A stretch of 26,878 nt of DNA, from positions 245,577 through 272,454 of the forward strand of contig NW_003135343.1 in the NCBI RefSeq assembly GCF_000003605.2, given 5' to 3'. The position numbers and the translations under genes are program-made. Position 1 is the stretch's first letter, and the number at the start of each line of letters is the position of its first letter. The DNA comes from Saccoglossus kowalevskii. Lineage: Eukaryota > Hemichordata > Enteropneusta > Harrimaniidae. The notes beneath the pieces were generated by a model. It did not search any database. It was not told where the DNA came from and saw nothing but the letters and a program-made list of their open reading frames with translations. This document shows, piece by piece, positions 3,591 through 26,878 of this stretch.

Positions 3591-6500
3591 CATAGTCAGA
3601 TTATGTTTAAATACTAGTGTTTTGCATAATAACTGCAAAAGAGCATGAAACAAGTATAAAGACTAAGTTTGAATGAATTTGCTCAAAGTTTGTCTCAGTA
3701 ACTGTTAATAACATATCCAAATTTTGGGGTTAATTAATGGCTGTCAGTTGAAGGTCAACAAAATAAAACAAAGCGATATTCACATGTATCATGACTTTTG
3801 ATGTACCAACTTTGAAAAAACACACACCATATACCACATTATATCTTGTCTTTGCACAAATTTAAACCCAGTCTCTAAATTCAACCCTGTAAAATTGGCA
3901 GAACACCTGCAAAAAAATGGCCACCAGTCTGCCATGTTGATTTGAATCACGGAAAAAAATGAAGTGCATCAGTAACCCACTATGACTGATGTCAATGACA
4001 AGTTCGAATGAAGTCGGTGAGGCCATATTCGAATTTTGTGATTTTATTGTTGTTTGACGAAAATGGCTGCCATTCGGCTAATTTCCCATGAACATGAAAA
4101 ATAACTAAAAACAGCATTTAATCAATTATATCTTGCCTTTTTACAAAATTTAGCCCAAATCTGTACAATCATCTCTGTCAAATGAGCAGAACACTCGTTA
4201 AAAAAATGGCCGCCAGTCCATGACGGCATAGTAATCCAATAATTCCTCTTCGGCTGAGAATTTGTCTTTATTGTCAAAGTATAGGAAGATCAGTGGTTGC
4301 GGATGTATTCATTTTATTAGTAGTGAACTGAAACTAACAATAACATCTTTAAACCCTTTTCTTTTCTATCCGTCAAATCGTTTGATTGCCTATTTTCACC
4401 ACTTTTAAAATCTCTCTCTAAAACCGGATGTGTGGTATTTTACACCTGAGTTCTTCTAGCATAGAGGTCACTGAGCCAACGATATTCACAGGACAAAATT
4501 AATTCCGAATATTAGCAATATCATCTCGTCCGCTTCGATCTCTTCTCTTAAAAAATGAAAAGTATAGAATTATAAAAATCCGCACATGTAATGTGAAAAC
4601 ACAAACACTATTACCACGAATTGAACTTTATTATCTGGTGCTATAAATGATTGAGTTTAATGAGTTATCCCGCACATAATAAATCGAGGCCGCATTAAAT
4701 ATCAATGCAGTACGCTTGCTCTATCAATTACAATTTCCACATGTTCCATAGTAGAGTAACAATATCATCATTCCTTCGGGTTTGTTTACGATAACTTTGG
4801 GTTCCCTTCTTTCTTCAGAAAATCTAAAAAGGCATCATTCGGCCCAAGTTGTGTTGCTTCTTTAACAAATGTGCCACCTGTCCACACACTGCCGATAGTA
4901 TATTTCAATCAGTGAATGAGTCTGCGTGCGACACAAGTTAACAATCACTTGAACACGCAACATGATATATCTCAAAATGTTAAATTATTGTTCAATATAT
5001 TTTTTTAATATTGTATTTATTGTATTAATGATTTTTTTCGATAACAGTTAAATAGTTGTGTATTATTAGAGAATTATAGGAGCTCGTTCAAATCAAATAC
5101 AAATTTGCACAAGTGTGTGGTAATCATCATATTTGAATTCAACACTGAGGCTCCGCCAATAAAATAATAGCAACGGAGGAAAACGAATCCAATTACATCA
5201 TAATCAAATTCACAGACCAGCATTCAATAATATCGAAATCCCAAATTCTGCAACTAATAAATTTCATCAGCACGAGGGGCAATGAAACTGTGAAGCTAGT
5301 CACCATTGGTCAGTTGTTTTATCACTATCATCATCATCATCAACCACTACTACTGCAATCTCAAACACAACTGACATCATTGTTACTAAAAGAACTGCTC
5401 ATCAATACAGCCATCACTACCAACTTCATTACAACCACTAAAAGCACTATCACCACCATCTGTCAACACCACCAACTTAACTATCAACTATTCATCACCA
5501 CTACTACCGTCGCCTCAATCACAACCACTGCCATACTATCAACTCCATTATCACTGCCGACCCCTCAACCATCACTACAAACACATCTACCACTACCACT
5601 ACGCCCGACGTGTTTGGCTTAACGTGACCAATATTCTTCACATTATCCAAACGTATATTGTATAGTGATATGTTAGGTTATTTCCATAATTTACTTAATG
5701 TTGATTGATATATTTTAATTATTGCCATTTTTGTTTTCTTTAAAGTTCATCAAATGGAGACAACACAAACGCACCAACTCGCCCTGACAAACAAACTGTT
5801 ACGGTGCAGGAGAAGAAAGAATTTCCAGACACATACTACCCATTGCCGGACATACGTACATATATACCTAACTTCTACACTAAGTTAAGTCCGAAGGATG
5901 CAAAGAAATATCTCAACAACGAGACAACAATGGTGTATTTACACCATCATAAAGCTGGAGGCAAATACATGATCAAGTGCTTGACATCAGCCCATGATAA
6001 AATGCCTTTCCCTACAGGTTTTGCTCATTTGACACTGAAAGATTGGGAGAAATGGCGCAACAGCAGGACGCCGAACACTAATGATCCCATAGAACTTCTC
6101 GTATGTGGTGGCATGGCGTTTGGGGCATGTGAGTTTGCACAAAGCCATCACCCGTGTTCGTATATCACCATACTTAGAGAACCATATGATCGTATGTATA
6201 GCTTGTACAACCACTGTCATAAAAGCCCCGGAGATTGGATTTGCTCGCGGTGGGACATCAGTGAGCTGGCCATTACAGACTTGGCAATATATACAGGCAG
6301 TCACTTTTTCCATCAGGTATTGACCAATCCTAGCATATGTGGAGGAAATAAAAGTGATGAAGCATATGCCTTTTCTGCAACTACACAACAATGGAAGCCC
6401 CATGGAAAATCCTGCTCTACATTCAGAACAATGGCATACTTGAAGTATTATTTGAACAAAAGCCAAAAGGAGGAACTGTTAGAATACGTAATTGAGAATC

Positions 6501-6796
6501 TAGAAAACTGGTTTACAGTAATTGGAATGCAAGATGAGATTGTATTAAGTTTACAGATGATAGAAAGGGCATATCAGCGGCCTGTGTATCAGGTGTGTAA
6601 AAACAGTTCTAAGAGAAACCCACCTCCTCCCGAACAAGTCAGAAATAAAGATGAGAAGATAAAGGAACTGAAGTCCGATCCAAGAGTATATGATGCATTA
6701 TACTACGACATTCGAATATACGAAGCTGCTCGAAAAATATTCAATCGACAAATAAGCAAATTTAATAATTCTGTTGATATTAATACTGGTGTATAA
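2699..6796 (+). CDS. Golgi type II carbohydrate sulfotransferase (3 exons)
   Basis: Proposed join 2699-2730, 3136-3258, 5746-6796, giving 401 residues. It would transfer sulfate from PAPS to a glycan in the Golgi lumen. Residues 1-11 (MKMIYIRNWKS) form a basic cytoplasmic tail, and about 12-29 (NFAIFIILALIGVTYVV) a signal anchor. A Thr/Asn/Pro-rich stem follows, then the catalytic domain with the 5'-phosphosulfate loop HHHKAGGK and the 3'-phosphate motif ILREPYDRMYSLYNH, as in the HS2ST/Gal3ST-like family. Both junctions are phase 2 and compatible (AG|T gives Ser each time). Donors are GTACGT and GTTTGT; acceptors are TTACAG and TTTCTTTAAAG. An alternative start is the ATG at 3125 (MYYSNF, 394 residues) with no upstream exon. 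Length suits the family. The substrate cannot be told. Confidence 0.75.
3125..3258 (+). CDS. Membrane-anchor exon of the sulfotransferase
   Basis: This exon encodes the signal anchor plus FRDNWWF and a Pro-containing stem start, ending in LALQ and a phase-2 AG before donor GTTTGT. The coding part is 3136-3258 if the upstream exon at 2699-2730 is used, or 3125-3258 if translation starts here (A at -3). The same 134 bp occur inverted at 490-357 with only substitutions, so the frame is preserved in both copies. Confidence 0.7.
3591..4785. other. Sulfotransferase intron, first part, with a diverged tandem duplication
   Basis: No gene on the plus strand. Two diverged copies of a block lie about 288 bp apart (about 3836-3931 and 4124-4219). 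Both contain TATATCTTG, ACAAA, GCAGAACAC and AAAAAAATGGCC(A/G)CCAGTC. This looks like an old tandem-duplicated interspersed repeat. The stretch after 4240 is unassigned. Confidence 0.5.
4786..4908 (-). pseudogene. Unidentified coding-like remnant on the minus strand
   Basis: A stop-to-stop frame of 40 codons reads as YTIGSVWTGGTFVKEA, then TQLGPNDAFLDFLKKEGNP, then KLS and a TAA stop at 4788-4786. Its residue composition and balanced codons look like a real protein C-terminus, unlike the AT-rich sequence around it. I do not recognise the family. It lies antisense inside the sulfotransferase intron, with a minus-strand AATAAA about 160 bp downstream (near 4624). It could be the last exon of a nested gene, a processed pseudogene piece, or chance. 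Confidence 0.25.
4909..5319. other. Sulfotransferase intron, no gene seen
   Basis: AT-rich intronic sequence with no repeat structure or coding signal that I can support. Confidence 0.4.
5320..5605. repeat. Degenerate CAC/ACT/ATC simple sequence
   Basis: A long run of C, A and T triplets (CATCATCATCATCAACCACTACTACTG and variants) with very few G on the plus strand. The open frame across it encodes only low-complexity T/I/L/H/P residues, so I treat it as decayed trinucleotide microsatellite in the intron just upstream of the catalytic exon, not as protein. Confidence 0.7.
5746..6796 (+). CDS. Catalytic exon of the sulfotransferase
   Basis: It begins after the acceptor TTTTCTTTAAAG with one base that completes the split Ser codon. 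It encodes the stem (SSNGDNTNAPTRPDKQ) and the whole catalytic domain to TAA at 6794-6796. PAPS-binding motifs are HHHKAGGK at about residues 118-125 and REPYDRMYS at about 196-204 of the 401-residue form. Several Cys and N-glycosylation sequons (NNET, NKSD, NKSQ, NNSV) fit a Golgi-lumenal protein. A one-exon catalytic domain is common for this superfamily. Confidence 0.9.
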
Positions 6797-11915: not shown

Positions 11916-11921
11916 TTTATT
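11916..11921 (-). terminator. Polyadenylation signal of the Ig-protease-fibrinogen gene
   Basis: AATAAA on the minus strand, about 50 bases downstream of the TAA stop at 11975-11973. Confidence 0.6.
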
Positions 11922-11972: not shown

Positions 11973-12601
11973 TTACCCAGTTTTTTGTATTCTCATTGTG
12001 GATGATTTAAGGACATGCCAGTAATTCCATGAAAACACTCCCACACCATTATCATGTTTTTCATCCCGTGGGAATACCCCGTTTAGATTCACATAACTGC
12101 ATGAATAGAACCACCATCCACCGTGGTAGTCTCTGGCGCAGTTACCATCATGACTATCGTTGTCTCTGTCATAGGTGGAGAAGGGTTGACCATCTAAACT
12201 ATGGGGTCTCATTGCGTCGCCTGCTGTCCCTGAATATCGTCCCAAATGCAATATATAGTGAGAGCTTTCATTTTCAATCCAGAACGAATCATACTCGGCA
12301 TATGCACTTTCACCATTAATCTTTTCCAAGTCAATTCTCAACTTGTACGAATATTGGTTTGTCAATCCATATATATTATCATTTCCTATCCAGTATTCAC
12401 TGTTGGCATTCCCAAAACCTGCTTTATAATCAGACCAGTTTCTTTCAAAGTTTACACAGCCACTGTATCTTCGTTGTATGATGGTCCATGTACCAGACTC
12501 GGTCATCTCACAGTACGCTACAAAGGGTTGGACCGTTTCACTAAGTTTCATTTGATACACTCCGCTGTAGCTACCGACATCATCTCGCACAGAGTCACAA
12601 T
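11973..12601 (-). CDS. Exon 8: fibrinogen C-terminal domain and stop
   Basis: A single exon encodes the whole domain of about 209 residues. It starts with DCDSV after acceptor TTATTCGCAG and contains [34 protein letters not shown], the calcium-site-like [30 protein letters not shown] and a closing [17 protein letters not shown]. These are the standard landmarks of the family found in ficolins, tachylectins and FREPs, which bind acetylated sugars. The exon enters in phase 1. The single-exon form differs from the several exons usual in vertebrate members. Confidence 0.95.
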
Positions 12602-15600
12602 CTGCGAATAAAATGTGTTTTTTTAATTAAAATACGCGCGTCCTTTATTTAATTTAATGACTTCAACAGAGTTTTCTGAAATTAACGTCACTAGTATTAC
12701 ATTGTTTTTCGTCAGTAACTACACTACCTTAAGTATTGGCGATCCGCTCCGCTAGGATTGCCCTTATAATCACTTTTGTCGTTTTGTGTGTGTGTGTGTG
12801 TGTGTCTGTGTGTGTACATTTCCAGTGTTTCAGTGTTCACGTATTATTTCTTCTGTGACTTTTTTGGCTTGGCCGATTTCGTTCAAACTTGGCAGGTAGG
12901 TCACACCTTAACCCTAGTTATAAGGAAAAATCTGAAATTTTTTTTTGGACCACTGTTGCCATAGCAACAGCCAAAAAACTGATTTTTGGATAGCTTCGCG
13001 CCAAATGTATCTCCTTCTACAAATTTGGGATACAACACTTCAAACATAGCTCATTCTACTCAGCTTGAGTATGGGCACAAAGTTACCATTTGAATTTTTG
13101 ATATCTGTTTTCATTACCGAGAAATTTGACCCTAAAGTTGTGGTAACTTTTCACCAGCAACGGCTCGGCTGGTTTTGTTCATACTTCACAGGTAGGTCGT
13201 GCCGTCACTAATTGGAAAAAAATCCTGGCCCACCACTGCCATTGCAACATCCAAAAACTGATTTTTGAATACTTTCGCCCCAAATGTATTACCTCCTACC
13301 AGTTTTGTACACAGTCAGCTGGCATCGGTGTCCCTGGGTGTATATGATAAAGGGAAGTTGTGCAACCAAATTTGCCGAGTTCGCAGATTTCGCCAATAAA
13401 AAAATAACTAAGGCAACCACTCACGGTTTTTCAGCATTTTTGTAATAAAGACATTATTCTCTATCAATAATCCGCCCAAAACAGGAACATTTCTACTAAT
13501 TCTTGTGTTTTTTAGACGTTTTTCGAAAAACCTGCTATTAGGCTGCAAAAGTAGAACATTCCGGAGGGGGCGAAAGGGAAGAGCCAAATTTAACGCGTAA
13601 AAATAGAACGCGTATTTTGACCTCTATATGTGGTCGTTGCCAAAGAGCCCTGCGTCCATCGCCTGGCGATGCTCTTCCGTTTCACCAGTTGCGTTTTTTG
13701 ACTAAAATTTGGGCAGTACTGTCAGTCACGAAAATTGATGAATAAATTAATACACATAAAATATGAATCACGGGCTAATTCAATGGTCACCGAACACTCC
13801 ACTACTAAACAATCTGTGGCAAGATAGTAGCGTACTGTATATTTGACCCAGATTTGACAAGCGTGGTAGTGGTACAGTTTTTTGCGCGTGTCCGTAATAA
13901 CGCGCACAAAGGATTGTGGGACAGAGTCCTTTATTTGCTGGCATTCTTGACTTTTAACTGCAGTTCTTTTTTTTATATTTTAGAGTAAATGCTTCTGATA
14001 TGCTCTTAGGTTGCTTAATATCCGTCTGAAATTCTGGACTGTGGTCATATTTTTCGATTAGGAGTCGTATATTTAAATTACTCACTGTGAATAGTGTTTT
14101 GCATTATGAAGTATATTGTTATGAAGGTCAACACACTGCAATTTAGGTAAATATTTACCATTTCGTTATTTCATTATTTCGCTTTCCAGCATTTCCGGGA
14201 AACGCTTCATTCTAAAAAATGCTATCGCAAAACGGTTGGAAATAATAAATGTAACAGCAGAATACGTCCTAGCACAGTAACTCTACTAGGAGAGAGTAAC
14301 TGTGGTCCTAGTACTAAACTAAGTGACTTCTAAAGACTGAATTGTGTTTGCGAACTTCGTATTAGTTATAAACCGACGTCAGCTTCACGTTTATGTCACC
14401 ATGGAAACAGCCAAAAAACATGTTGCTTGTTTTTGAGCGGAGCGGATCGCCAACCAGCCTACCGGCTTGTATTATCATTTAGTCAGCCATCATATACGAC
14501 ATAAGATTCAATTTCCACATACAGTTTGAGCTCAACATCGTCGACTATTAGCCTAACTATTACACTGTAGATCTTCGATAAGAAATAAGACTGAAATATG
14601 GCTAGAAATTAGAATGATTGATATGTATTTTCTGTCACATGATATAGATTAAATAATATATTGTTGTATATACCAAGTTAGTGGATATAGTTTGAATATA
14701 TGTAATATAATAATTTACTTTTAGTAATTCTATTAAAAAATCATAAGTAAAATAATTATATCTTACAAGTGGACTCTCACAGCTTGTTCAATGGCCATTT
14801 TTATTCAATTACTATGTGAACACATGGTAAAACATTAGCTATGCGTTCTTACCTCTTTCGCTATTTAAAGTACAAATTTCATTTGCGGTCTTTTCCCAAG
14901 AATCGTCTGTTAAAAATAACGAAATATGGACTGAGCTCAAACCATCATTAAGTTACATTACCAAAACACAATAATAAATGCATCAGTACTATAACAACGA
15001 GCTATACGCAACAACGTGTCAATAAATTGAATGATGATCGTTCCTATGCGACATATTTGGCACACTCATTATCGAGCGTGGTGTCGCTCTTTAATCCCGT
15101 ATGGCACTGTGTGGAGTTTATTATTGGTAAAACGATAAATCGTCAGTTATTATTGTTGAACACTGAGGAAAATTATAGGACAATTGTTTCAGGTACATAC
15201 ATGCTTCCATAAATGCGGTTTATTGTACACCGGATTTTTCATAGTAATATATGTTCTTTTCAACTTCATGCATATTACACCAACATACCTTGTATTAAGG
15301 TATTGGGTTATTATGTATAGAAATGACGCACCAAAGTGTACACATTTGCGCAATTGAATGTTACGGCGCCCTCGTTCAATTTACGTGACTGGCCAAAAAT
15401 GTTGTTTATACCTGTAAAGCCACACTGTCGAGTGAGTGTTTTAGACAAATATCATGAAATAATCATAACATGGACTTAGCAATCGATTGCATTGCTAGAA
15501 TACAGCGCTGAATGTATGTTAATTTATGTAAATACAAAAGATGTATTGTACGCTTTGTCATTTCCTCGTGAATAATTAAATGCATAACACTTTACATGAC

Positions 15601-18600
15601 ATTTTTAATACCTGTTAGATAGCTTAGTCGCTGGCTGATACATGTGCTGTATTTGTTGTTGTGGGTTTGAAACCTTTTCTTGGGCATTTTTTTTAAATAA
15701 TTTAGAAAAAATTCTATCTCCTCGTCAACTCAGAAGATGCATCTTGAATAAAGCTGCGAAATTACTGGTGCATATGAACTGTGGCCGGTTTAAAATTAGC
15801 AAAGACGAAGGGAAACATACCAACGGCCAGAAACATGGGTCACATACTACTAAGAGTGGCATTAGCAATGGTAAATGATATAAACCTCTATATAAACCAA
15901 ATTTCATTTAATTGCCCATTCAAATTATGTATTTAATATACAACGCATCTAAACAAAATAATACAAATATACCTTATAGTAAATAGTTCAAAGTAAACGT
16001 GTCTTTACTTGTGCACAATATTTACAACAGTGAATAATATTACCTGAAATGTTGATACATTCGTCAGATGTTATGCCTGTAATCCAATCATGAAATATGT
16101 GAACAGCTGTGTATATTCCTGGTGTGTCTGGCGTAGCACATCCCATTCCCCAACTCACTAGTCCCAATAAATACCACTGGTGAAGATGAAGATCCTGTAA
16201 TTATTTTGAAATGGACGTCATATAAAAATGACATATTCATCACAAATGTTACAGTAACAACTAGTAATAATTAACGCTCTAAGTTATAGTGTGCCGTAAT
16301 TTTGCGGTATTTTACGGGGTATTTTCATTCTACCATGTTAGGAAATGCGAAATCCAAATATGGAATGATTACGCGTGTAGGCGTCCTCTAATAATAAAAA
16401 CAAACATGGCTGCCATCAGAGTTTGACCGGACTCCACACAAAGAAGTTCGCTGATTCTGTTCTAAACATTTTAGAATTTAGCATCCCCGTGATGTATTCT
16501 AGGAAGGAAAAGATGTATAATAATAAGGTTATTACGAGGTTGCCTTATAGTATGCACTCAGACAGTACGCCGCGCATCGACCTCTGCTGCGCATCAGTCG
16601 ATACTCCAGGTACACTGTCTTCGTGCATACTTTGGGGTATCCCCGTAATAACCTCATTGTATTTAGCGAACATAGATATTGGCCAAACGGGAATCAATAA
16701 TTCAATGTTTGAGATTTCAAAAATATGTGTGATAACTGTGATATTTTGAATAATTTTTGAATAATAGACTTTTCGGGGGAACATGACATATCATTTGCAA
16801 ATTTAAATACATTTATAGTAAAGGTGTCATTACAAGCAGTTGATTGCATGACAGAAAATAATTATCACTTGACTAAGCTGGCATATTAGGGAAACAAATG
16901 CAAGCTGTCCCAGGGAAAATCACTTTACTGGACGCAAAATATATGTGCGACGGATGCGGCCACTCGTCATCAACCGCAATTTTCATTCCGGAATGTACTA
17001 AACCACCTATATCTATACAGATTCTTATTACAAAATCAAAAACATTATCAGAGGTACAATTGAGCTAATTTGACGGAACATATTCAAATCATTGTGATTT
17101 TACTATTATTACTAATATTTTAATGTGCTGAGATAGTGTCCTACCTTTCCCATATATGGTCCACCGCTATCTCCTTGACATGCATCTTTCTCTTCTTCTC
17201 CCGGGGGTGGACCTGCGCAGAACATGTCATTAGTCACGTTAAATATATGAGCATTTTTGCAGTCGTCATGGCCATGTATTGTCAGCTGAACCTGAAGGAG
17301 AGTGTGGAAAACAGAGTGTCAGCAAAATTGTGCTGACATAGTAGTATTATACACAAGTTGCTGTGAATAGTATATTCACATATATTAGTATAGGCATCAA
17401 CCATAGTTATTCAGGTAAGATATTTGTTCAAATTATTATATATTATACATCGCAAGATTTACATCCATCACATAACCTAACTGGCGTATAACTGTGACCA
17501 AAACTAAAATGGTAAAACACATGTATTATAACACTAAGATACAAATAGCACTATGTGACGATAATTCACATGTGACGTCAAAACACATTCACCCGTCGAC
17601 GAATAATAAACTTTATTTGTTTATCACAAGACCCCATACACTGTTCTACCTGAAACATAATAATGTTTGGCTCATTTGTCTGCTAAACACAATAAAAGCA
17701 AACAAAGATCTATGACGAGGCAGTATTCAATATAAATTGTATTTCTTTTCTATCAAAGAGTAAACGATATTGGCAAAATAGACAATATGGCTATAAGACC
17801 AAATATGGCTATAAGACCAAATATGGCTATAAGACCAAATATGGCTATAAGACCAAATATGGCATGCAATATCCAATAGATATTAGTAGTATCATGGTTG
17901 TGTGCATATAAAATTAGCAGTATATGCACTACAGATTTGTGGATCAAATTCTGATGTACCAACAAATTCTGTGTATAAACGCAGATGTACTTACAAACTA
18001 ATCTTACCTCACGCAGTTCACTGAACTCGTTCATTGTATCTTCACTTTTTGTGTCACCCCATCCTATCACAGTGCCGAATTTGCCAGCTTTTAACATCTC
18101 TTCGGCTAGGTTTGTAGATGGCAAACAAACTGCAATTTGAAAGCATTGTCACAAATATGTTAATTATTTTGCGTGACACAAAGTACTGTGGTAGAATAAA
18201 GTTTGTTTGTTCATGCACATTGATATTGAATCTATCAAATGCTTCAAAATTAACAAACTAACATACTGTAGTAAGTAGCACAGGACAACGACTAAGTCGA
18301 AAAATACATAAAATGATTTTGTGAATGCTCTTTAATTTGCATATTAACAATCCAATACCAAAGTTTTCAAGGCAACTCGGTTGTTAAGTTAGAACTCGAA
18401 CTAGATGCGTTATACATGACGAAGTGTAATCAGTTTACATTTTTTATACTAACAATTTCAACTTAGGTCATGTGACCCGCTACTTGATGAAAGGGGCATT
18501 ATCAGTAAGCTAGAATATTTATTAACTTATTTGTCGAATTTGGGCGTTATATAAGTATCAGCATTTCCACGAGAACATAAATATTATTTTACAGCTGATT

Positions 18601-21600
18601 TTATTTACAGTAATTAGTTTAAAACAAATCAAATCCTTGAATTCCACATTAAGATTGATGGTGTAACTTTCCATCAACAATCTTGAATTTAGTGACTTTA
18701 TTCCAATGATAAATGCAGTTGATTTAGGAGGCTACGAAATATGCTTCTTCTGCTAGATATTTCGATCAATGCCGCGAAAGGGGGAGCTTTTTATTTGACA
18801 AGAGAGATGATTTTTATTTTTATTTTCTTACTTTCACATCCGTATCTTGCCTACCTCTGGGGTAAATATTTCCCAACCCATTTGCTATGTACCTGTGATA
18901 CATATGTAGACTTGTTTCAATCTTTTTTCATTTAAAACTATCAAATCAAAGGTTTTGTAGAGAAAAACTGGCCTTAATACTTAAATTTTGCGTCCAGTAA
19001 AACGATTTTCCTGGGACAGCTTGCATTTGTTTTCCTAATATGCCAGCTTAGTCAAGTAATAATTATTTTCTGTCAGACTACATGCAATCAACTTTAATTT
19101 CATTTACTATAGATGTATTTAAATTCGCAAATGATATTTTTATATACATGTAAATTTGGTTATTTCATGTTCTTCCAAAAAGTCCATTATTCAAAATATC
19201 ACAGTTATTACACATAATTTTTGAAATCTCAAACATAGAATTATTGATTCCCCTTTGGCCAAGGGATGGTCTTTTGATACACGAAGACAGGGCAGCTGGA
19301 GTATCGACCGATGCGCAGCGAAGGTCGATGCTAAAGCGTACTGTCTGAGTGCATACTTTGATGTATCCTCGTAAAAACCTTATTATTATACATCTTTTAT
19401 TTCCAATGATACATCATGGGAATGCCGAAATTCAAAAGGTTTCGAACAGAATCAGCGAACTTCTTTGTGTGGAGTCCGGTCAAACCCTGACGGCAGCCAT
19501 GTTTGTTTTTATTATTAGAGGACGCTTACCCGCGTAATCATTCTATATTTGGAATTCGCATTTCTTTATAAGGTTGGATGAAAATACCGCGTAAAATACC
19601 ACAAAATTACGGCACATTATAACTTAGGGCGTTGCGGTGACAGATGTATAATAATGACTCATATTGATATATAGCGGCGCCTTATGGCAGGCGCGGAGCA
19701 GAATTTGCTCACTCTTTATATTCTTAGAATTGTATCACTACCATGTAAAGACTTCAACCCTTTTGCCTAAATATACCAGATATGGTGATATTATTTATTA
19801 TCTGACGAAACATATAATTTGCAATGCCAATTATGGATATAGGGGCATTCAAAATTGTTCGAAAATTTTACATACAGAAAAAAATTAGAATATTCAATAT
19901 TTGTTTGTTAAAGATCTATTTTGAGTTTGTTCTACAAACATTCAAAATATATCCAAACTTTTACATGCAATCCCACACGTTATTTCGAGTACTGCCTACA
20001 AAATAATATATTAATTAACATAGACACCATGTGTTTGTGACGTACACATATCTTGTGTACTAAACTGATGCACAGTACCTGGCTTTATATAATCCGTGAA
20101 ATTTACAGGCTTTCTCAGTCGAATGAGAGCGATGTCTGCGTTGTACGTTCGTTTGTCAAATTTCGGATGCATAGTGATTTTATCAACTTCGACCTCAATC
20201 TCCCCGTCTTCAACCACGTCGGCAATGTGTTTGCCAAGATATAATCGCAAAGTGTTCTTTGTTACACCCTTTTTCACAATGCAGTGGGCAGCAGTTACAA
20301 CCCATTTAGATTTAAGAAGAGCCCCTCCACAAAATGCTTTCTCTGTTCTCGTGTCATATAACATTGCCATCCACGGCCACTCTCCTTTTTCCGCCGTTTG
20401 TCCGCCAACTATTCTTGCTCTCGTTTGTGCAATGCCACACTTCCCTGAAGAAAAAAAACAAGGGCATTATCTGTGTGTTACTAAATTCTAGAGTACTTTA
20501 CCAATTACATATTAAAAGTTCTCTACTCTGCGAAAGCATCAATTAATGACGATTCAGGTGTAGTAGTAGTAGAACATATAGGAATATTAATAGTAACCTA
20601 CGATAAATGGCATGATTGGTTACGAGACAGTTTTGTGAGGTAGGCTACATTGAACCTCATGTACTTTAGATGTGATACCATATATGTCATACATTAATCA
20701 TTACTTTAGTAGTTTTACTTGGTAACATGTGACGAATGTTTTCATTTATGGTAGACCATGTGATTTTTTTATTGTGCAGAGCACGTATTTGCTTTACTTA
20801 CCATCACTTACACGTGGTTTCTTGCCCATACGAGCAGGTGATTTATCTACATTAACACGCCATCCATCCGTTTTAATTCTTTCTGCAATGCAAACGTACA
20901 CATATTACAAATTTCGTCTTCCTAGACTTGAATTAGCCATGGTTATTGAAGCACTGCCATCTTTAACAGGTGGTGCTTCATGAACATTGACACGTTACTT
21001 CACATCAACAATGGACGTTTTTTACACTTCTTCCAATACACTTCTTGTCTCTATACCAAGTCCTTCTTGCAAGCTGTCTCTATACCAAGTTTTATAGTCA
21101 AATTTGTACTTTGTATTTTGTATTTTGAGTGGGTTTAATGTCATCATATTTGCTTCTTGGCAGATTATCAGTCCTCCCAGTCTTGTTAATTTAGTGTGAT
21201 GGTCTTTATTGCAATCAAAGGCCTGTGGCCCAAAATACATAAACTATGAATAAAATATAAAGTAACAAAAACAGTAATGTCACACACTGTGTTTATAAAT
21301 TTCATAATGTAATTTAAGGGAATGAAAAAGAAAGGCTGCAAGAGATTTGAATTCATTTCTGTCTTCAGTCAATAACAAGGTTAATAACTTCTCATATGAG
21401 GGCGGGGTAAAATAATATCTAGGGATGTACGTTTTCCTACATTCATCAAAGAAGGGATAAATCAACAAAAAGTGTAATTCATCTTCAATTTCTACGTTTT
21501 CACAAAGTGGGCAAAGGCGTTCATCTCTTGGGATATCATTTCTCCTGTCGGTTTCTATCCTAAGACAATGTGAAGAACAACGAAAACGGGATAACATAAA

Positions 21601-22693
21601 CCTATGATAGGGAATAGAAACAGCAAACAAATAACGCTCGGGCTCAAGCCGCGTTTTAAAATTACAATAATTATTAAGTTTGTCCAAAGTTGTGACATCT
21701 CCTTGCCAATCTAAGTATAAACGATATTTTAGTCTAGAAACAAAAATGTTAACAAAATGACTTGTGTTCGATATCTCTTGCGACTCCCACACCTCGTGCA
21801 TGTTAAAAGAAAATATCCCAGTCTTGTAATTCCCAACAAAATCGATGATTTTATACCAAGGTATCATTGTTATAGTCTGATGCGTCACATCATGTGGGTG
21901 AACGTGGCACAAGAGTTTATTATTCCAAATAGCCTAAACTGCAGACAAACCTCTTGGGTGGGATACATTGTGAAGTGTTGTACATCTTATCTCTACTAAT
22001 AGATTGCTCGACTGATCAGTACAATGAATAGTCTTGCCTCTATCCATGTATCTATCTCGCCCTCTCCCACGTATGGTGTGCTATATTGCCGATTTGTTTG
22101 GTAATTATGATTACATTGTGGCTTGCATGCATTCGTCTTCTCACTTAATGTATACCTTGACGACAGGATATCTTTTGTCTGCTGTGTATTGTGGTGTATT
22201 TTTCTGTAGTTTTGTCTTGCTCTTGTGATTTTTTTTTTAAGAAATTGAGATGTGCTTCCTAATTTGTCAGTCTTTGTTTACCTGTAAAAAAATCAGTTTA
22301 TGATTTGTTTGTCAATCCATTTTATTTGGTGTGATAGTTTAGATGATTATGATCAGTTTTTGTCATGCATCAAAATACACTCACCAGTCACATGACGATC
22401 AGGTTGCTCGATGATGTTGACCCATGCATCAGCTTTATCATATTGGCTGCATGCCTTTCTGATACAACGACTACATGTATACATTCCGCTATCCTCTAAT
22501 TTAGCGTCAAGTACTAATAAATGGTTTTCAGGAGAAAAAAACATTCTGTCGTCTCTATATGCGTTTGCTCTCGCAATGTTGGTATTGTCTTTCCTCCAAT
22601 ATATTGCTGTACCATGGTTGCCTTTACATCTTAACAGGAACCGTTCCCCTGTCACTGTAGATATGTTGACAGGGGTTTCAGAGAACGGAACAT
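11973..22693 (-). CDS. Ig - trypsin-like serine protease - fibrinogen C-terminal fusion protein (8 exons visible, 5' end missing)
   Basis: Exons, in transcript order: 22693-22385, 20882-20802, 20444-20079, 18129-18008, 17291-17145, 16194-16044, 14906-14853, 12601-11973. Every junction is GT-AG and phase-compatible, giving 619 residues and TAA. Residues 1-103 are an Ig domain (C23, W33, DSGMYTC 68-74) and 104-130 a basic linker. The protease has a zymogen Cys133, cleavage at R141/IVGG, His184 (TAAHC), Asp234 (NADIAL) and Ser335 (GDSGGP). Asp329 in the S1 pocket predicts Arg/Lys specificity. 393-410 is a second linker and 411-619 a complete fibrinogen C-terminal domain. Likely secreted and possibly a pattern-recognition protease; that role is inferred. 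No signal peptide was found, so upstream exons probably lie beyond the retroelement block. Confidence 0.85.
12736..14453. mobile_element. Terminal-inverted-repeat element, 1.7 kb, non-coding
   Basis: An 18-bp motif TTGGCGATCCGCTCCGCT at 12736-12753 is exactly inverted at 14436-14453. Between them lies a TG microsatellite and a block repeated about 290 bp apart (about 12860-13030 and 13150-13310) with CAGGTAGGTC, CCACTG(T/C)TGCCAT and CCAAAAA(A)CTGATTTTTG. A third partial copy (CAGCCAAAAAACATG) lies by the right terminus. No transposase frame is visible, so it would be non-autonomous. No clear target-site duplication was seen. It sits in the intron before the fibrinogen exon. Confidence 0.55.
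12785..12816. repeat. (TG)n microsatellite
   Basis: TG dinucleotide run with one TC interruption, inside the terminal-inverted-repeat element. Confidence 0.9.
14454..14852. other. Intron sequence, nothing seen
   Basis: AT-rich intron between the 1.7-kb element and the small linker exon; no repeat or coding signal seen. Confidence 0.4.
14853..14906 (-). CDS. Exon 7: 18-residue linker between protease and fibrinogen domain
   Basis: [18 protein letters not shown], phase 1 at both ends, between acceptor TTTTTAACAG and donor GTAAGAAC. It has one Cys, as does the end of exon 6 (DECINIS), so the two may form a disulfide. Acceptor, donor and phase all fit, which makes this tiny exon credible. It is symmetric and could be skipped without changing frame. 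Confidence 0.7.
14907..16043. other. Intron between protease domain and linker exon
   Basis: No repeats or nested gene that I can support. A short plus-strand frame at 15642-15878 is Lys/His-rich and has no homology that I recognise. Confidence 0.4.
16044..16194 (-). CDS. Exon 6: protease C-terminal part
   Basis: Encodes [19 protein letters not shown] and [19 protein letters not shown], the end of a trypsin fold (SWG-x-GC and PGIYT loops forming the S1 pocket walls). [12 protein letters not shown] follows, leading to the linker. Acceptor ATAATTACAG; donor GTAATA; enters phase 0, leaves phase 1. Confidence 0.92.
16273..16940. repeat. Inverted intronic repeat, arm 1 (about 668 bp)
   Basis: Starts with AACGCTCTAAGTTATAGTG and ends with TTTACTGGACGCAAAAT. 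The reverse complement of the whole stretch is found at 18985-19633 (landmarks TGTGCCGTAATTTTG, AACATGGCTGCC and CAAGCTGTCCCAGG match). It lies in the intron between exons 5 and 6. The open frame at 16423-16749 is not conserved between the arms as protein, so I do not call a gene. The two copies are probably insertions of the same repeat family in opposite orientation. Confidence 0.85.
17145..17291 (-). CDS. Exon 5: protease exon with the catalytic serine
   Basis: Reads [15 protein letters not shown], then [11 protein letters not shown], then [15 protein letters not shown]. The Ser of GDSGGP is the nucleophile, and the Asp six residues before it marks trypsin-like specificity. Acceptor CTCCTTCAG, donor GTAGGA, phase 0 at both ends, 49 codons. 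Confidence 0.95.
17785..17863. repeat. 18-bp tandem repeat, 4.4 copies
   Basis: Four exact copies of ATATGGCTATAAGACCAA plus a partial fifth. It is in the intron between exons 4 and 5. On the minus strand it reads IFGLIA repeated, but only by running through the exon 4 donor site, so it is not protein. Confidence 0.95.
18008..18129 (-). CDS. Exon 4: protease middle part
   Basis: Completes a split Val codon, then [19 protein letters not shown] and [21 protein letters not shown]. The VCLP and GWG landmarks fit the trypsin family between the catalytic Asp and Ser. Acceptor TTTCAAATTGCAG, donor GTAAGA; phase 1 in, phase 0 out. Confidence 0.93.
18130..18984. other. Intron sequence before exon 4
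   Basis: AT-rich; no gene or repeat that I can support. Confidence 0.4.
18985..19633. repeat. Inverted intronic repeat, arm 2 (about 649 bp)
   Basis: Reverse complement of 16273-16940 with moderate divergence and small indels. It lies in the intron between exons 3 and 4, so the two arms bracket exons 4 and 5 about 2 kb apart. Confidence 0.85.
19634..20078. other. Intron sequence after exon 3
   Basis: Apart from a GC-rich spot near 19674-19700 (GGCGCCTTATGGCAGGCGC), AT-rich with no supported feature. Confidence 0.4.
20079..20444 (-). CDS. Exon 3: activation site and catalytic His and Asp
   Basis: Starts after TTTTTTTTCTTCAG with [15 protein letters not shown]. Cleavage after Arg would free Ile-Val-Gly-Gly, and the preceding Cys would tether the light chain. 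[17 protein letters not shown] holds the catalytic His and [11 protein letters not shown] the catalytic Asp. It ends in YIKP with a phase-1 G before donor GTACTG. The open frame continues briefly past the donor but loses trypsin similarity there. Confidence 0.95.
20445..20801. other. Intron between linker exon and exon 3
   Basis: No feature seen apart from the acceptor and donor signals at its ends. Confidence 0.4.
20802..20882 (-). CDS. Exon 2 (visible): basic linker between Ig and protease
   Basis: 27 codons, phase 1 at both ends: [19 protein letters not shown] then GKKPRVSD. Acceptor TTTGCATTGCAG and donor GTAAGT are both strong. It is Lys/Arg-rich and may be an exposed, protease-sensitive hinge. 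A decayed near-copy lies just upstream at 20958-20994. I recognise no domain. Confidence 0.7.
20958..20994 (-). pseudogene. Decayed near-copy of the linker exon
   Basis: CGTGTCAATG...GATG reads [12 protein letters not shown], aligning with RVNVDKSP...RVSD of the real linker exon with a seven-codon deletion. Where the real exon has donor GTAAGT, this copy has GCAGTG, and a TAA stands just before it in frame. It looks like a duplicated exon that has lost its splice sites. Confidence 0.35.
21195..21960 (-). mobile_element. 5'-truncated LINE, C-terminal ORF2 and 3' UTR
   Basis: The frame down to 21280 encodes about 210 residues ending a LINE polymerase polyprotein. It includes LYLDWQG, YNCNF-like spacer, [40 protein letters not shown] and [15 protein letters not shown], the Cys/His tail common in invertebrate LINE ORF2 proteins. 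The 3' UTR contains TTTGGGCCACAGGCCTTTG and AATAAA near 21205. The reading frame meets a TAG near its 5' end. It is inserted in sense orientation in the intron after the Ig exon. Confidence 0.75.
21961..22384. other. Intron sequence next to the Ig exon
   Basis: T-rich intron on the plus strand; perhaps more decayed LINE sequence at its low end; nothing else seen. Confidence 0.35.
22385..22693 (-). CDS. Exon 1 (visible): Ig-like domain
   Basis: 103 codons, phase 1 at both ends, between acceptor TATCTTTATTGCAG and donor [18 protein letters not shown], then [25 protein letters not shown] and AWVNII give the B-strand Cys, core Trp, D-x-G-x-Y-x-C and G strand of an Ig fold. Two extra Cys (SRCIRKAC) next to the second canonical Cys may form a further disulfide. 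The phase-1 start means at least one more exon upstream. Confidence 0.9.
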
Positions 22694-24546: not shown

Positions 24547-24735
24547 CACCCGAGTAGAATGTGGCGTCACAGTGCTCTCGCTTTACAAGCCTTTCCGAAG
24601 TTTGTAGAACTCGTACACGCTAAAACACAGCGATAGTATACTTGTGAATACAACTACTCTGCATAGGTGAGCTACATTGACATTTTTATTGAATTCCAAA
24701 AAAGAAAAATCAACTCGGTACTGGCAAAAAGCAAG

Positions 24736-26258
24736 ATGGCGTCCCAACCCGATGCCGAAGATAGACCAACCCAGTCGCTTGCTGGCCTAACAAGAAAACA
24801 CGCCATTAAGTGTGAATCGATTGATGGGACTAGGATTGAAATTTACTTAGAAGCTATTGCCGGGATTACTGGACCTAAGAATATTGTAGCGGCATCAAGT
24901 GTGAATGGTTCCGTGATTGTTTTTCTTAGCTCGGTCACCTGGGTGAATGACATCTGCACTAGAGGTTTGGAGGTGATACACGTAGAGCCACTAATTAAAC
25001 CTGCAACAAAGATCCTGGTCTCCGGTGTACCACCGTTTATACCTGACGCGCTTATTCATAATGAATTGTCACGATTTGGTAAAGTTATAAGCACTATTCG
25101 ATCTATACCACTGGGATGTAAGAACGAGGCCCTTAAACATGTAAAATCTTTCCGGAGATACGCATTTGTACTACTGATTTCTGACTTACGGGGTGAACTA
25201 TATGGGCAAACGGATATACAATTCCAAGAAAAAAGCTACAAAGTTTATTTGTCAGCAGACCAAATGAGATGTTTTTAAATGCTAACAAACAGGTCGCATA
25301 CAAAGAAACTGTCCAAACTTACGACAGTCAATTGAAACACCTGACAACAATACTACTATTGATGCCACTGAGCACCCGAACAACAAAACATCTGCCCACG
25401 TAGATCAACAGCCAACCAATGACTGTGTACCAGCTTCGGAACCTATGAGCAACAATGAGATAACCAACAAAGTAAACACCGAGTCAATCAACAGCAACGA
25501 AAGCACACCAAATGACGTAACCGATCAGGCTATTATAACACACGAGCCAAATGCACACAACAATACCCCGGACGTACACACCGAAAACGACCAGCCTGAA
25601 ACTGATCAACAACTAATGGATACTAGTTTTGACACCGAAAGAGCAACCAACAACAACGACAACACTGATTACAAACAACAACCCACTAGCAACGATACTG
25701 ATACCGAAAATAACCACCGTGATGATGATGATGATGATGACGAAAGAGATAGGGTACTAACCCCTACTCCAACACCCCCTCTGCACCTTTCCTTTTCGAT
25801 TCGCCATTGCCTCCATCACCACCGCCCCTTGCCACGCCACCACTGGTAGAGCCTGGGTTTGTACCGGACAGTATCGGCAGTACTCGATACTCGCCGCTTA
25901 CGACACAGAACATCGACACTCTATCTGAGAACACAACCCAGGAAACAGACGACAACGAATCAGTAATGTCCGATTTGTCAGAAATATCACAATCTTGCGA
26001 AGCATCTATTACATCGATTATAGAATTTCTAGAAGACGTCAAACATTCAAAAAGGTTCATAGAAAAGTGTATGAAATACAACCCAAACCTCAGAGAACTT
26101 CAAAACAACTAATGAAATACCGATCATCACAGTCACTAATAAAATCACAACAAGCTCGAATCTACAAAATGATCACTAAAATAAGAAGCCACCTGAAATC
26201 AACCGGAAGAGCCACCGCAGTTGAGGACAACACGCCACCTTTGCAACCAACATGTTAA
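24736..26258 (+). pseudogene. Tx1-like ORF1, several frame lesions
   Basis: Start chosen at ATG 24736 (MASQPDAEDRP, good context AAGATGG); an upstream in-frame ATG at 24667 is possible. An RNA-binding-like part runs to CF at 25278. There a one-base shift, a stop and a His-to-Arg change break what would be a CCHC knuckle (C-x2-C-x4-R-x4-C). The frame resumes at about 25300-25790 as an Asn/Thr/Asp-rich segment with a D-run from (GAT)n. It shifts again near 25770-25800 into SPLPPSPPPLATPPLVEPGF and a helical part (IIEFLEDVKHSKRFIEKC), and once more near 26100 into QLMKYRSSQSLIKSQQAR, ending at TAA 26256-26258. Either dead or error-laden sequence. Confidence 0.7.
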
Positions 26259-26297
26259 TACACAAAGTTTACATCATATATACTTTTAGTCACGTCC

Positions 26298-26878
26298 ATG
26301 GCTCTGTCGTGTTTAACCCTTAACGTGCGTGGATGTAGGGACTCACTCAAACGTTCCCAAATCTTTGAGTTTTTAAAACATAACAACACAGCAGACGTCT
26401 ACCTATTACAAGAAACTCACACGAATCCTAGAGACAAGGTAACTTGGCCGTTGATATGGAGGGGAAAATGCATTCTATCGCACGCCACTACGTACAGTGC
26501 GGGGGCAGCTATTTTATTCGCTCCAAATTCCAACATAGAAATAACCAGCAAATCTGAACCAATCCTCGGACACTTAATACACGCTAATGTAAGGATCAAC
26601 GATATCCAAACCAACATCATCAACATATACGCACCTACGGACCCTGGTGAACGCATTGCTTGCTTCACTAAACTTTCTACACTCCTCTCCGGCTTGAACG
26701 AAGATCCAATAATTATCGGCGGAGATTTCAACTGCACTATTAAACCAGACCAAGACAGAATTCACAGCACCGAACCCGCACCTCGCACAGCACGATATTT
26801 ATCCAACCTCATAAGTAAACATAAACTCACGGACAGCTGGCGCTATCACCATGGCAACAACAGAAACTATACCTGGCA
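26298..26878 (+). CDS. Tx1-like ORF2, N-terminal endonuclease domain (partial)
   Basis: ATG at 26298 opens 193 codons without a stop to the window edge. Motifs of the exonuclease III-like nuclease of non-LTR elements are in order: LTLNVRGCRDS (Asn), VYLLQETH (Glu), GAAILFAPNS, INIYAPTDPGE, and PIIIGGDFNC (catalytic Asp/Asn). This nuclease nicks target DNA to prime reverse transcription. The RT domain would follow to the right. Unlike ORF1, nothing visible here is broken. It starts 39 bp after the end of ORF1. Confidence 0.88.
   Translation, partial: MALSCLTLNVRGCRDSLKRSQIFEFLKHNNTADVYLLQETHTNPRDKVTWPLIWRGKCILSHATTYSAGAAILFAPNSNIEITSKSEPILGHLIHANVRINDIQTNIINIYAPTDPGERIACFTKLSTLLSGLNEDPIIIGGDFNCTIKPDQDRIHSTEPAPRTARYLSNLISKHKLTDSWRYHHGNNRNYTW

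Follow-up and report, generated by a model that had tools for sequence, protein, structure and literature searches.

A gene of the hemichordate Saccoglossus kowalevskii appears to encode a chimeric zymogen in which an immunoglobulin (Ig) domain, an S1A (trypsin-type) protease, and a fibrinogen C-terminal domain follow one another, in that order, on a single chain. It lies within a 26,878-nucleotide (nt) stretch of contig NW_003135343.1 (positions 245,577 to 272,454 of the forward strand in assembly GCF_000003605.2; hereafter the window, whose own numbering is used for its features). Its eight exons lie on the minus strand, have AG/GT borders, and fuse in frame to give 618 open codons that end in TAA and are open at the 5' end; their phases agree in order throughout (Table 1). 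On balance we favor the reading that this is one gene for a secreted zymogen of the form ...-Ig-S1A protease-fibrinogen, assembled by phase-1 exon shuffling. Such parts (Ig, protease, and fibrinogen-like recognition) usually occur on separate immune proteins in animals; vertebrates assemble a recognition domain and an initiating protease from ficolin and MASP.

Gene Structure and Evidence for a Single Gene

Judged from the sequence, the exons very probably form one gene, because each of the linking exons (2 and 7) is the one candidate in its interval and the only separate start found for the fibrinogen part sits in a transposon. Exon 2 is the one phase 1-1 open candidate within an interval of 1,940 nt, and exon 7 the one such candidate within 3,442 nt. 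The thresholds were the scores of exons 2 and 7 themselves, chosen after the fact, and with them 88,419 nt of control sequence held a single phase 1-1 candidate. With a looser donor threshold the two exons were still alone in their intervals, and the control held 10. Retention of an intron leads to an in-frame stop 2 to 84 codons past the donor in seven of seven cases. A sequence-only reading of this DNA had claimed eight exons joined without a frame break, and the splice borders, phases, and 618 open codons bear it out.

Start exons were sought in a crude scan that considered phase-1 exits only and recovered one of two known positive controls (that of the C4443 gene but not that of the C3976 gene, both described below). 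It returned no candidates in six of the seven introns or in the 4,185 nt upstream within the window; the one candidate (14161-14086) lies in the exon 7-8 intron, inside the transposon. The 22.7 kb examined upstream beyond the window gave seven weak rows and, at a stricter setting, none upstream. Much of the intron space is taken up by repeats, so the underlying gene is compact, with scant room for separate promoters and first exons.

Exon 1 is entered in phase 1, and at least one upstream exon, carrying the signal peptide, is therefore absent from the model; because the 5' end is unseen, the Ig, protease, and fibrinogen domains may be no more than the C-terminal end of something longer. The polyadenylation-type signal past the stop codon (Table 1) is weak by itself because 33 AATAAA/ATTAAA sites occur on the minus strand between 11500 and 23000.

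Domains and Functional Residues

Residue numbers follow the joined model, the count beginning at exon 1. Pfam matches to Trypsin (4.8e-63) and Fibrinogen_C (2.8e-61) are both far over the cut-off; an NCBIfam search gave a sub-threshold match only. Four Pfam Ig models also match, all under the cut-off (the top one, Ig_2, at 2.6e-5 and 24.8 versus 27 bits). Despite these scores, the signature residues and a structure model indicate that the Ig domain is genuine: C22, W32, and D67-x-G69-x-Y71-x-C73 are invariant across nine aligned Ig domains of the same genome, and the AlphaFold2 model (predicted local distance difference test, pLDDT, 89.5) has a Foldseek match to Robo1 Ig5 (E 4.4e-9). The domain order claimed in the earlier reading is thus supported by Pfam and, for the Ig, by signature residues and the model.

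The protease joins its over-cut-off match to a His/Asp/Ser triad (H183, D233, and S334), an IVGG-type activation site between R140 and I141, and a specificity residue, D328, at the D189 position, the marks of the S1A trypsin-type family (PF00089). The catalytic and activation residues are intact, as the earlier reading had it, and to judge by them the protein is in all likelihood a catalytically competent zymogen. By analogy with the family, Cys132 of the pro-peptide and C253 (at the Cys122 position) would pair, holding the activated enzyme to the N-terminal part. Residue 225 aligns as Pro, as against the Tyr or Phe of the thrombin type, which we take to mark a sodium-binding site.

The fibrinogen domain likewise has the features of the fibrinogen-related family (PF00147), namely the over-cut-off match, conserved cysteines, and a DxDND motif. 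Cys564/577 and both Asp residues of DRD are invariant in 12 aligned domains; Cys411/440 and DRDND at 554 are also present. We take the motif to be of the calcium type, and the cysteines presumably pair as disulfides. No obvious partner is seen for the linker residues C387 and C403 or for C458 of the fibrinogen domain, and one may speculate that they could join chains. The joined protein contains seven N-glycosylation sequons. Among solved structures, those closest to the fibrinogen domain form a mixed set, namely FGL1, angiopoietin-like 2 (ANGPTL2), tenascin-R, and ficolin-3, from which its ligand is not readable; binding of acetyl sugars is conceivable.

Relatives in the Genome and Origin of the Fusion

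The window is part of a 572-Mb assembly whose mitochondrial contig points to Saccoglossus or a near relative: cox1 lies on the other strand from nad1 and cox2, and these three genes hold 32 ATA, 11 AAA, 1 AGA, and 0 AGG codons. Judged against conserved motifs of animal mitochondrial proteins, several of the ATA codons fall at Ile sites and AAA codons at Lys sites. For S. kowalevskii, an inverted COX1, AUA read as Ile, AAA as Lys, AGA as Ser, and absence of AGG have been described (PMC3121625). A search of the assembly gave at least 72 matches to the joined protein (71 of 130 candidates scored). Fibrinogen-like matches occur on at least 16 other contigs and protease matches on at least 19 others; among the matches listed, only the window's contig has both. 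No second copy of the whole architecture was found among the 72 matches; genes can be split where contigs end.

Of the multidomain protease genes found in the genome, the nearest lies on contig C3976 (1148498-1157655), and its protease is 48% identical to that of the window. The gene appears to encode a signal peptide (identified by eye), two CUB domains, each in two exons, two Ig domains, and a protease in a single exon. Pfam supports three CUB half-domains (5e-15, 2.5e-9, and 2.2e-13; the fourth half was recognized by eye), the second Ig (I-set, 1.7e-8), and Trypsin (2.2e-64); the first Ig, split over two exons, matches below the cut-off only (0.0024 and 0.0098). No fibrinogen match was found on this contig in the genome searches. 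With borders judged by eye, its last Ig exon has phase 1-1 and its protease exon begins in phase 1 immediately ahead of a Cys-Gly, a pattern that the window shares; the window Ig is 29% identical to this last Ig over 72 residues. From this sequence evidence C3976 is an apparent MASP-like gene and may be the one that PMC11312191 calls MASP1L in S. kowalevskii.

A second protease relative, the C2928 copy (48108-49800), is 62% identical in one exon and has two exons with the same borders as those of the window. It is damaged: the frame is broken at the activation site, the contig ends soon after, and a mariner-like transposase fragment lies upstream (by eye).

A fibrinogen profile search of the genome yielded 39 matches. 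The closest relative, C4443, is 61% identical over exon 8, with a common exon border and phase (synonymous divergence, dS, 0.73; nonsynonymous divergence, dN, 0.27); it is a stand-alone fibrinogen gene whose start exon contains, by eye, a signal-like segment and a stretch rich in heptads that looks like a coiled coil. Four further relatives are more distant, with dS from 2.45 to saturated, and a fibrinogen-domain copy on C2915 (445047-445716, about 60% identity) has a change of frame inside the domain. Elsewhere in the genome, three tandem fibrinogen-domain matches lie within 8.5 kb of C1213 (94992-103435), and a fibrinogen domain and two CUB domains share one strand within 7.6 kb of C3651 (171762-179322), possibly the tenascin-like gene with CUB, FN3, and fibrinogen domains of PMC11401434.

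In the history that we propose as the simplest, an Ig-protease unit akin to the animal's MASP-like genes would have gained the last exon, coding for the fibrinogen domain, of a plain fibrinogen-related gene. Protease dS is saturated against C3976 and stands at 1.5 and 1.8 against two C2928 pieces; compared with the value for exon 8 this suggests that the fibrinogen exon was acquired later, single dS values being weak evidence.

Alternative Interpretations

Several observations weigh against a single Ig-protease-fibrinogen protein with a MASP-like history. The first coding exon and its signal peptide were not found in the window or in the 22.7 kb examined upstream. That all eight exons share one mRNA we infer from splicing signals; skipping of exon 7 would preserve the frame. 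Beyond exon 6 the frame stays open for 18 codons of the following intron, and a separate Ig-protease mRNA could end at the stop reached there. The protease is split over four exons, versus the single exon of C3976, and its MASP-like ancestry, to which the pairwise identity to C3976 points, is tentative; all 60 chains listed as the best solved matches of either protease, that of the window or that of C3976, are thrombin. In a genome-wide search the Ig resembled Igs from elsewhere in the genome more than those of C3976, and the structure model of the fibrinogen domain is poor (pLDDT 58).

The exons could instead belong to two neighboring genes read in the same direction, one for an Ig-protease and the other fibrinogen-related, with a signal-peptide exon of the latter having been missed. 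Their frames would then agree by coincidence, which is conceivable given how often extracellular modules have phase 1; phase-1 borders are also found in the C4443 and C3976 relatives, C4443 stands alone with a start exon of its own, and the open frame beyond exon 6 is accompanied by AATAAA sites at 15224 and 15122. Yet exon 7, open and well spliced, sits exactly in the gap between the two supposed genes, the sole intronic start-exon candidate is the one within the transposon, and minus that transposon the exon 7-8 intron measures just ~0.5 kb, so we regard two genes as distinctly unlikely. There is a real, if minority, chance that one gene encodes a longer protein, a MASP-like protease with a fibrinogen tail and more N-terminal domains (CUB, further Ig) before the Ig exon: exon 1 requires an upstream exon, and C3976 has CUBs and Igs ahead of its protease. 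Against this, C3976 domain queries found no CUB or Ig match in the upstream sequence examined (best minus-strand E 0.26), and there was no CUB on the window's contig among the 150 of 402 CUB candidates scored.

The gene may also be real and serve no immune role, encoding a thrombin-like protease with a fibrinogen-like tail that acts in clotting, wound closure, matrix remodelling, or development. The solved thrombins nearest the protease, and the presence of FGL1, angiopoietin-like 2, and tenascin-R among the nearest fibrinogen domains, speak for such a role, which we nevertheless consider rather doubtful, since Pro at 225 departs from the Tyr or Phe of the sodium-binding thrombin type and the closest multidomain protease gene found in the genome has a MASP-like architecture. 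That the locus is a recent chance chimera, unexpressed or decaying, is very unlikely; its damaged relatives (the C2928 protease with its frame break and the C2915 fibrinogen copy with its frame change) speak for it, but here 618 codons are open and every functional residue is present. In the fibrinogen exon dN is also far below dS in the comparison with C4443, a value that pools both lineages, so that the constraint may partly predate the fusion.

Comparison with Known Systems

The product would resemble a ficolin-MASP complex on one chain, yet its domains are not the ones that define MASP, ficolin, FREP, or CniFL. Pfam finds no collagen match in the joined protein, the region that marks ficolins and CniFL, and no CUB, EGF, or CCP domains, which mark MASPs. 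The contrast with ficolin/MASP and FREP architectures drawn in the sequence-only reading holds up: the defining domains differ, and the protease lies between Ig and fibrinogen.

Published systems are compared here as described in excerpts of the papers cited. MASP-like proteases with two Ig domains replacing two CCP domains have been described, with an architecture much changed in hemichordates among others (PMC11312191). These MASPL proteins, marked by CUB domains and an Ig pair before the protease, likewise have Ig ahead of an S1A protease, whereas the window protein, as far as it is modelled, has a single Ig, shows neither CUB nor EGF, and carries a fibrinogen domain behind the protease. 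Mollusc FREPs also combine an N-terminal Ig and a C-terminal fibrinogen domain on a single chain (PMC8878817, PMC9334734); the window protein differs in having a complete serine protease between them and in coming from another phylum, and the likeness of the Ig is one of architecture. Cnidarian CniFL unites Ig and fibrinogen in one putative lectin-pathway receptor (PMC5094078), but the collagen that defines it is absent from the window protein and CniFL is without a protease. S. kowalevskii itself has a predicted tenascin-like protein, XP_006814129, that is also newly combined and ends in a fibrinogen-related domain (PMC11401434); it contains EGF, CUB, and FN3 domains and no protease.

Secreted lectins of the FReD or ficolin-like kind, of which C4443 is an example, have the same boundary and phase of the terminal fibrinogen exon and the 61% identity given above, but the window protein is without coiled coil or collagen and its fibrinogen domain follows a protease. 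Thrombin provides the best solved match of the protease domain; the window protein differs from it in showing no Gla or kringle, in Pro at 225, and in carrying a fibrinogen-like domain on the enzyme itself. A recognition domain C-terminal to the protease is an unusual order for S1A enzymes.

No description of trypsin and fibrinogen (or Ig, trypsin, and fibrinogen) on one chain was found in full-text searches of open-licence papers, and an automatic gene model may well exist in protein databases; excerpts of related papers likewise contain no trypsin-fibrinogen chain (PMC3121625, PMC11312191, PMC9835746, PMC8878817, PMC9334734, PMC11401434, PMC5638244, PMC5094078).

Repeats and Other Features of the Window

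The transposon in the exon 7-8 intron gave at least 61 genome match rows, its own among them, with 40 of 831 candidates scored, and its best near-full-length copy is 97% identical; on this sequence evidence its family appears to have been recently active. The probable long interspersed nuclear element (LINE) 3' end in the exon 1-2 intron gave at least 34 match rows including itself, with a best whole-length copy 94% identical; an open reading frame (ORF) at 21280-21933 looks LINE-like by eye and is without a Pfam match. An old, diverged repeat lies midway along the exon 6-7 intron. One further interspersed repeat is present in two opposed copies, at 16273-16946 (exon 5-6 intron) and 18979-19633 (exon 3-4 intron), that are 86-96% complementary by block, and a transcript of both could fold back on itself into an extended hairpin enclosing exons 4 and 5. 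The exon 4-5 intron also contains a perfect 18-nt tandem repeat (4.4 copies, 17784-17863).

Outside the gene, a LINE occupies 24667-26878 on the plus strand, with a weak RRM-like ORF1 (0.023, below cut-off) and then an endonuclease ORF (Exo_endo_phos, 3e-9) that leaves the window. An intronless open frame of 350 residues (5744-6796) has no Pfam match at 1e-3 and two chance-level matches up to 1; by eye we would take it to resemble a Golgi sulfotransferase, which Pfam did not confirm. A tandem array with a 41-nt unit (24.6 copies, 90% matches) lies at 1186-2186.

Table 1. Exons of the predicted gene and associated features, in window coordinates
Feature	Coordinates	Strand	Phase	Content	Remarks
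Exon 1	22385..22693	-	1-1	Single Ig (I-set type) domain	Gene 5' end further upstream
Exon 2	20802..20882	-	1-1	Basic linker, 27 codons	
Exon 3	20079..20444	-	1-1	Pro-peptide Cys132, activation site R140-IVGG, His183, Asp233	
Exon 4	18008..18129	-	1-0	Protease domain; C253 (expected Cys132 partner) at start	Same exon border in C2928 paralogue
Exon 5	17145..17291	-	0-0	D328 (=D189) and catalytic Ser334, AGC codon	
Exon 6	16044..16194	-	0-1	End of protease domain, phase-1 exit	
Exon 7	14853..14906	-	1-1	Linker, 18 codons, one Cys	
Exon 8	11973..12601	-	1-stop	Complete fibrinogen C-terminal domain and TAA	Same 5' exon boundary and phase in C4443 gene
Polyadenylation-type signal	11916..11921	-		AATAAA	Starts 52 nt past stop
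Transposon	12736..14453			18-nt perfect terminal inverted repeats (12736-12753, 14436-14453)	Exon 7-8 intron
Interspersed repeat	21195..21815	-		Probable LINE 3' end	Exon 1-2 intron

Proposed Mode of Action and Significance

We picture secretion, disulfide pairing, ligand-driven activation, and a part in an immune (complement- or coagulation-like) cascade as features of this protein. The fibrinogen domain, perhaps with the Ig, would bind a surface or soluble ligand and so concentrate the zymogen; a trypsin-like enzyme, possibly a neighboring copy of the same protein, would cleave after R140, and the new I141 terminus would activate the protease, which would itself cleave after Arg or Lys. Because of the Cys132-C253 pair and the position of the fibrinogen domain C-terminal to the protease, the activated enzyme may remain tethered to its target at both ends. 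We lean toward the view that the fibrinogen domain is the targeting module. That the protein initiates a complement-like immune response is put forward tentatively. Equally tentative is the idea of a self-contained initiator of a lectin-type pathway, in which a ficolin-like terminal exon has been added to a MASP-like Ig-protease, placing recognition and activation in one gene.

The gene would document a protease that carries a recognition domain on its C-terminal side. If a single transcript is confirmed, it would show the lectin pathway's two halves naturally fused in a lineage near the chordates, and, because gene fusions often reveal protein partners, it would support a partnership of fibrinogen lectins and MASP-like proteases outside the chordates. 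It would then also offer a compact system for asking whether ligand binding alone activates such a zymogen.

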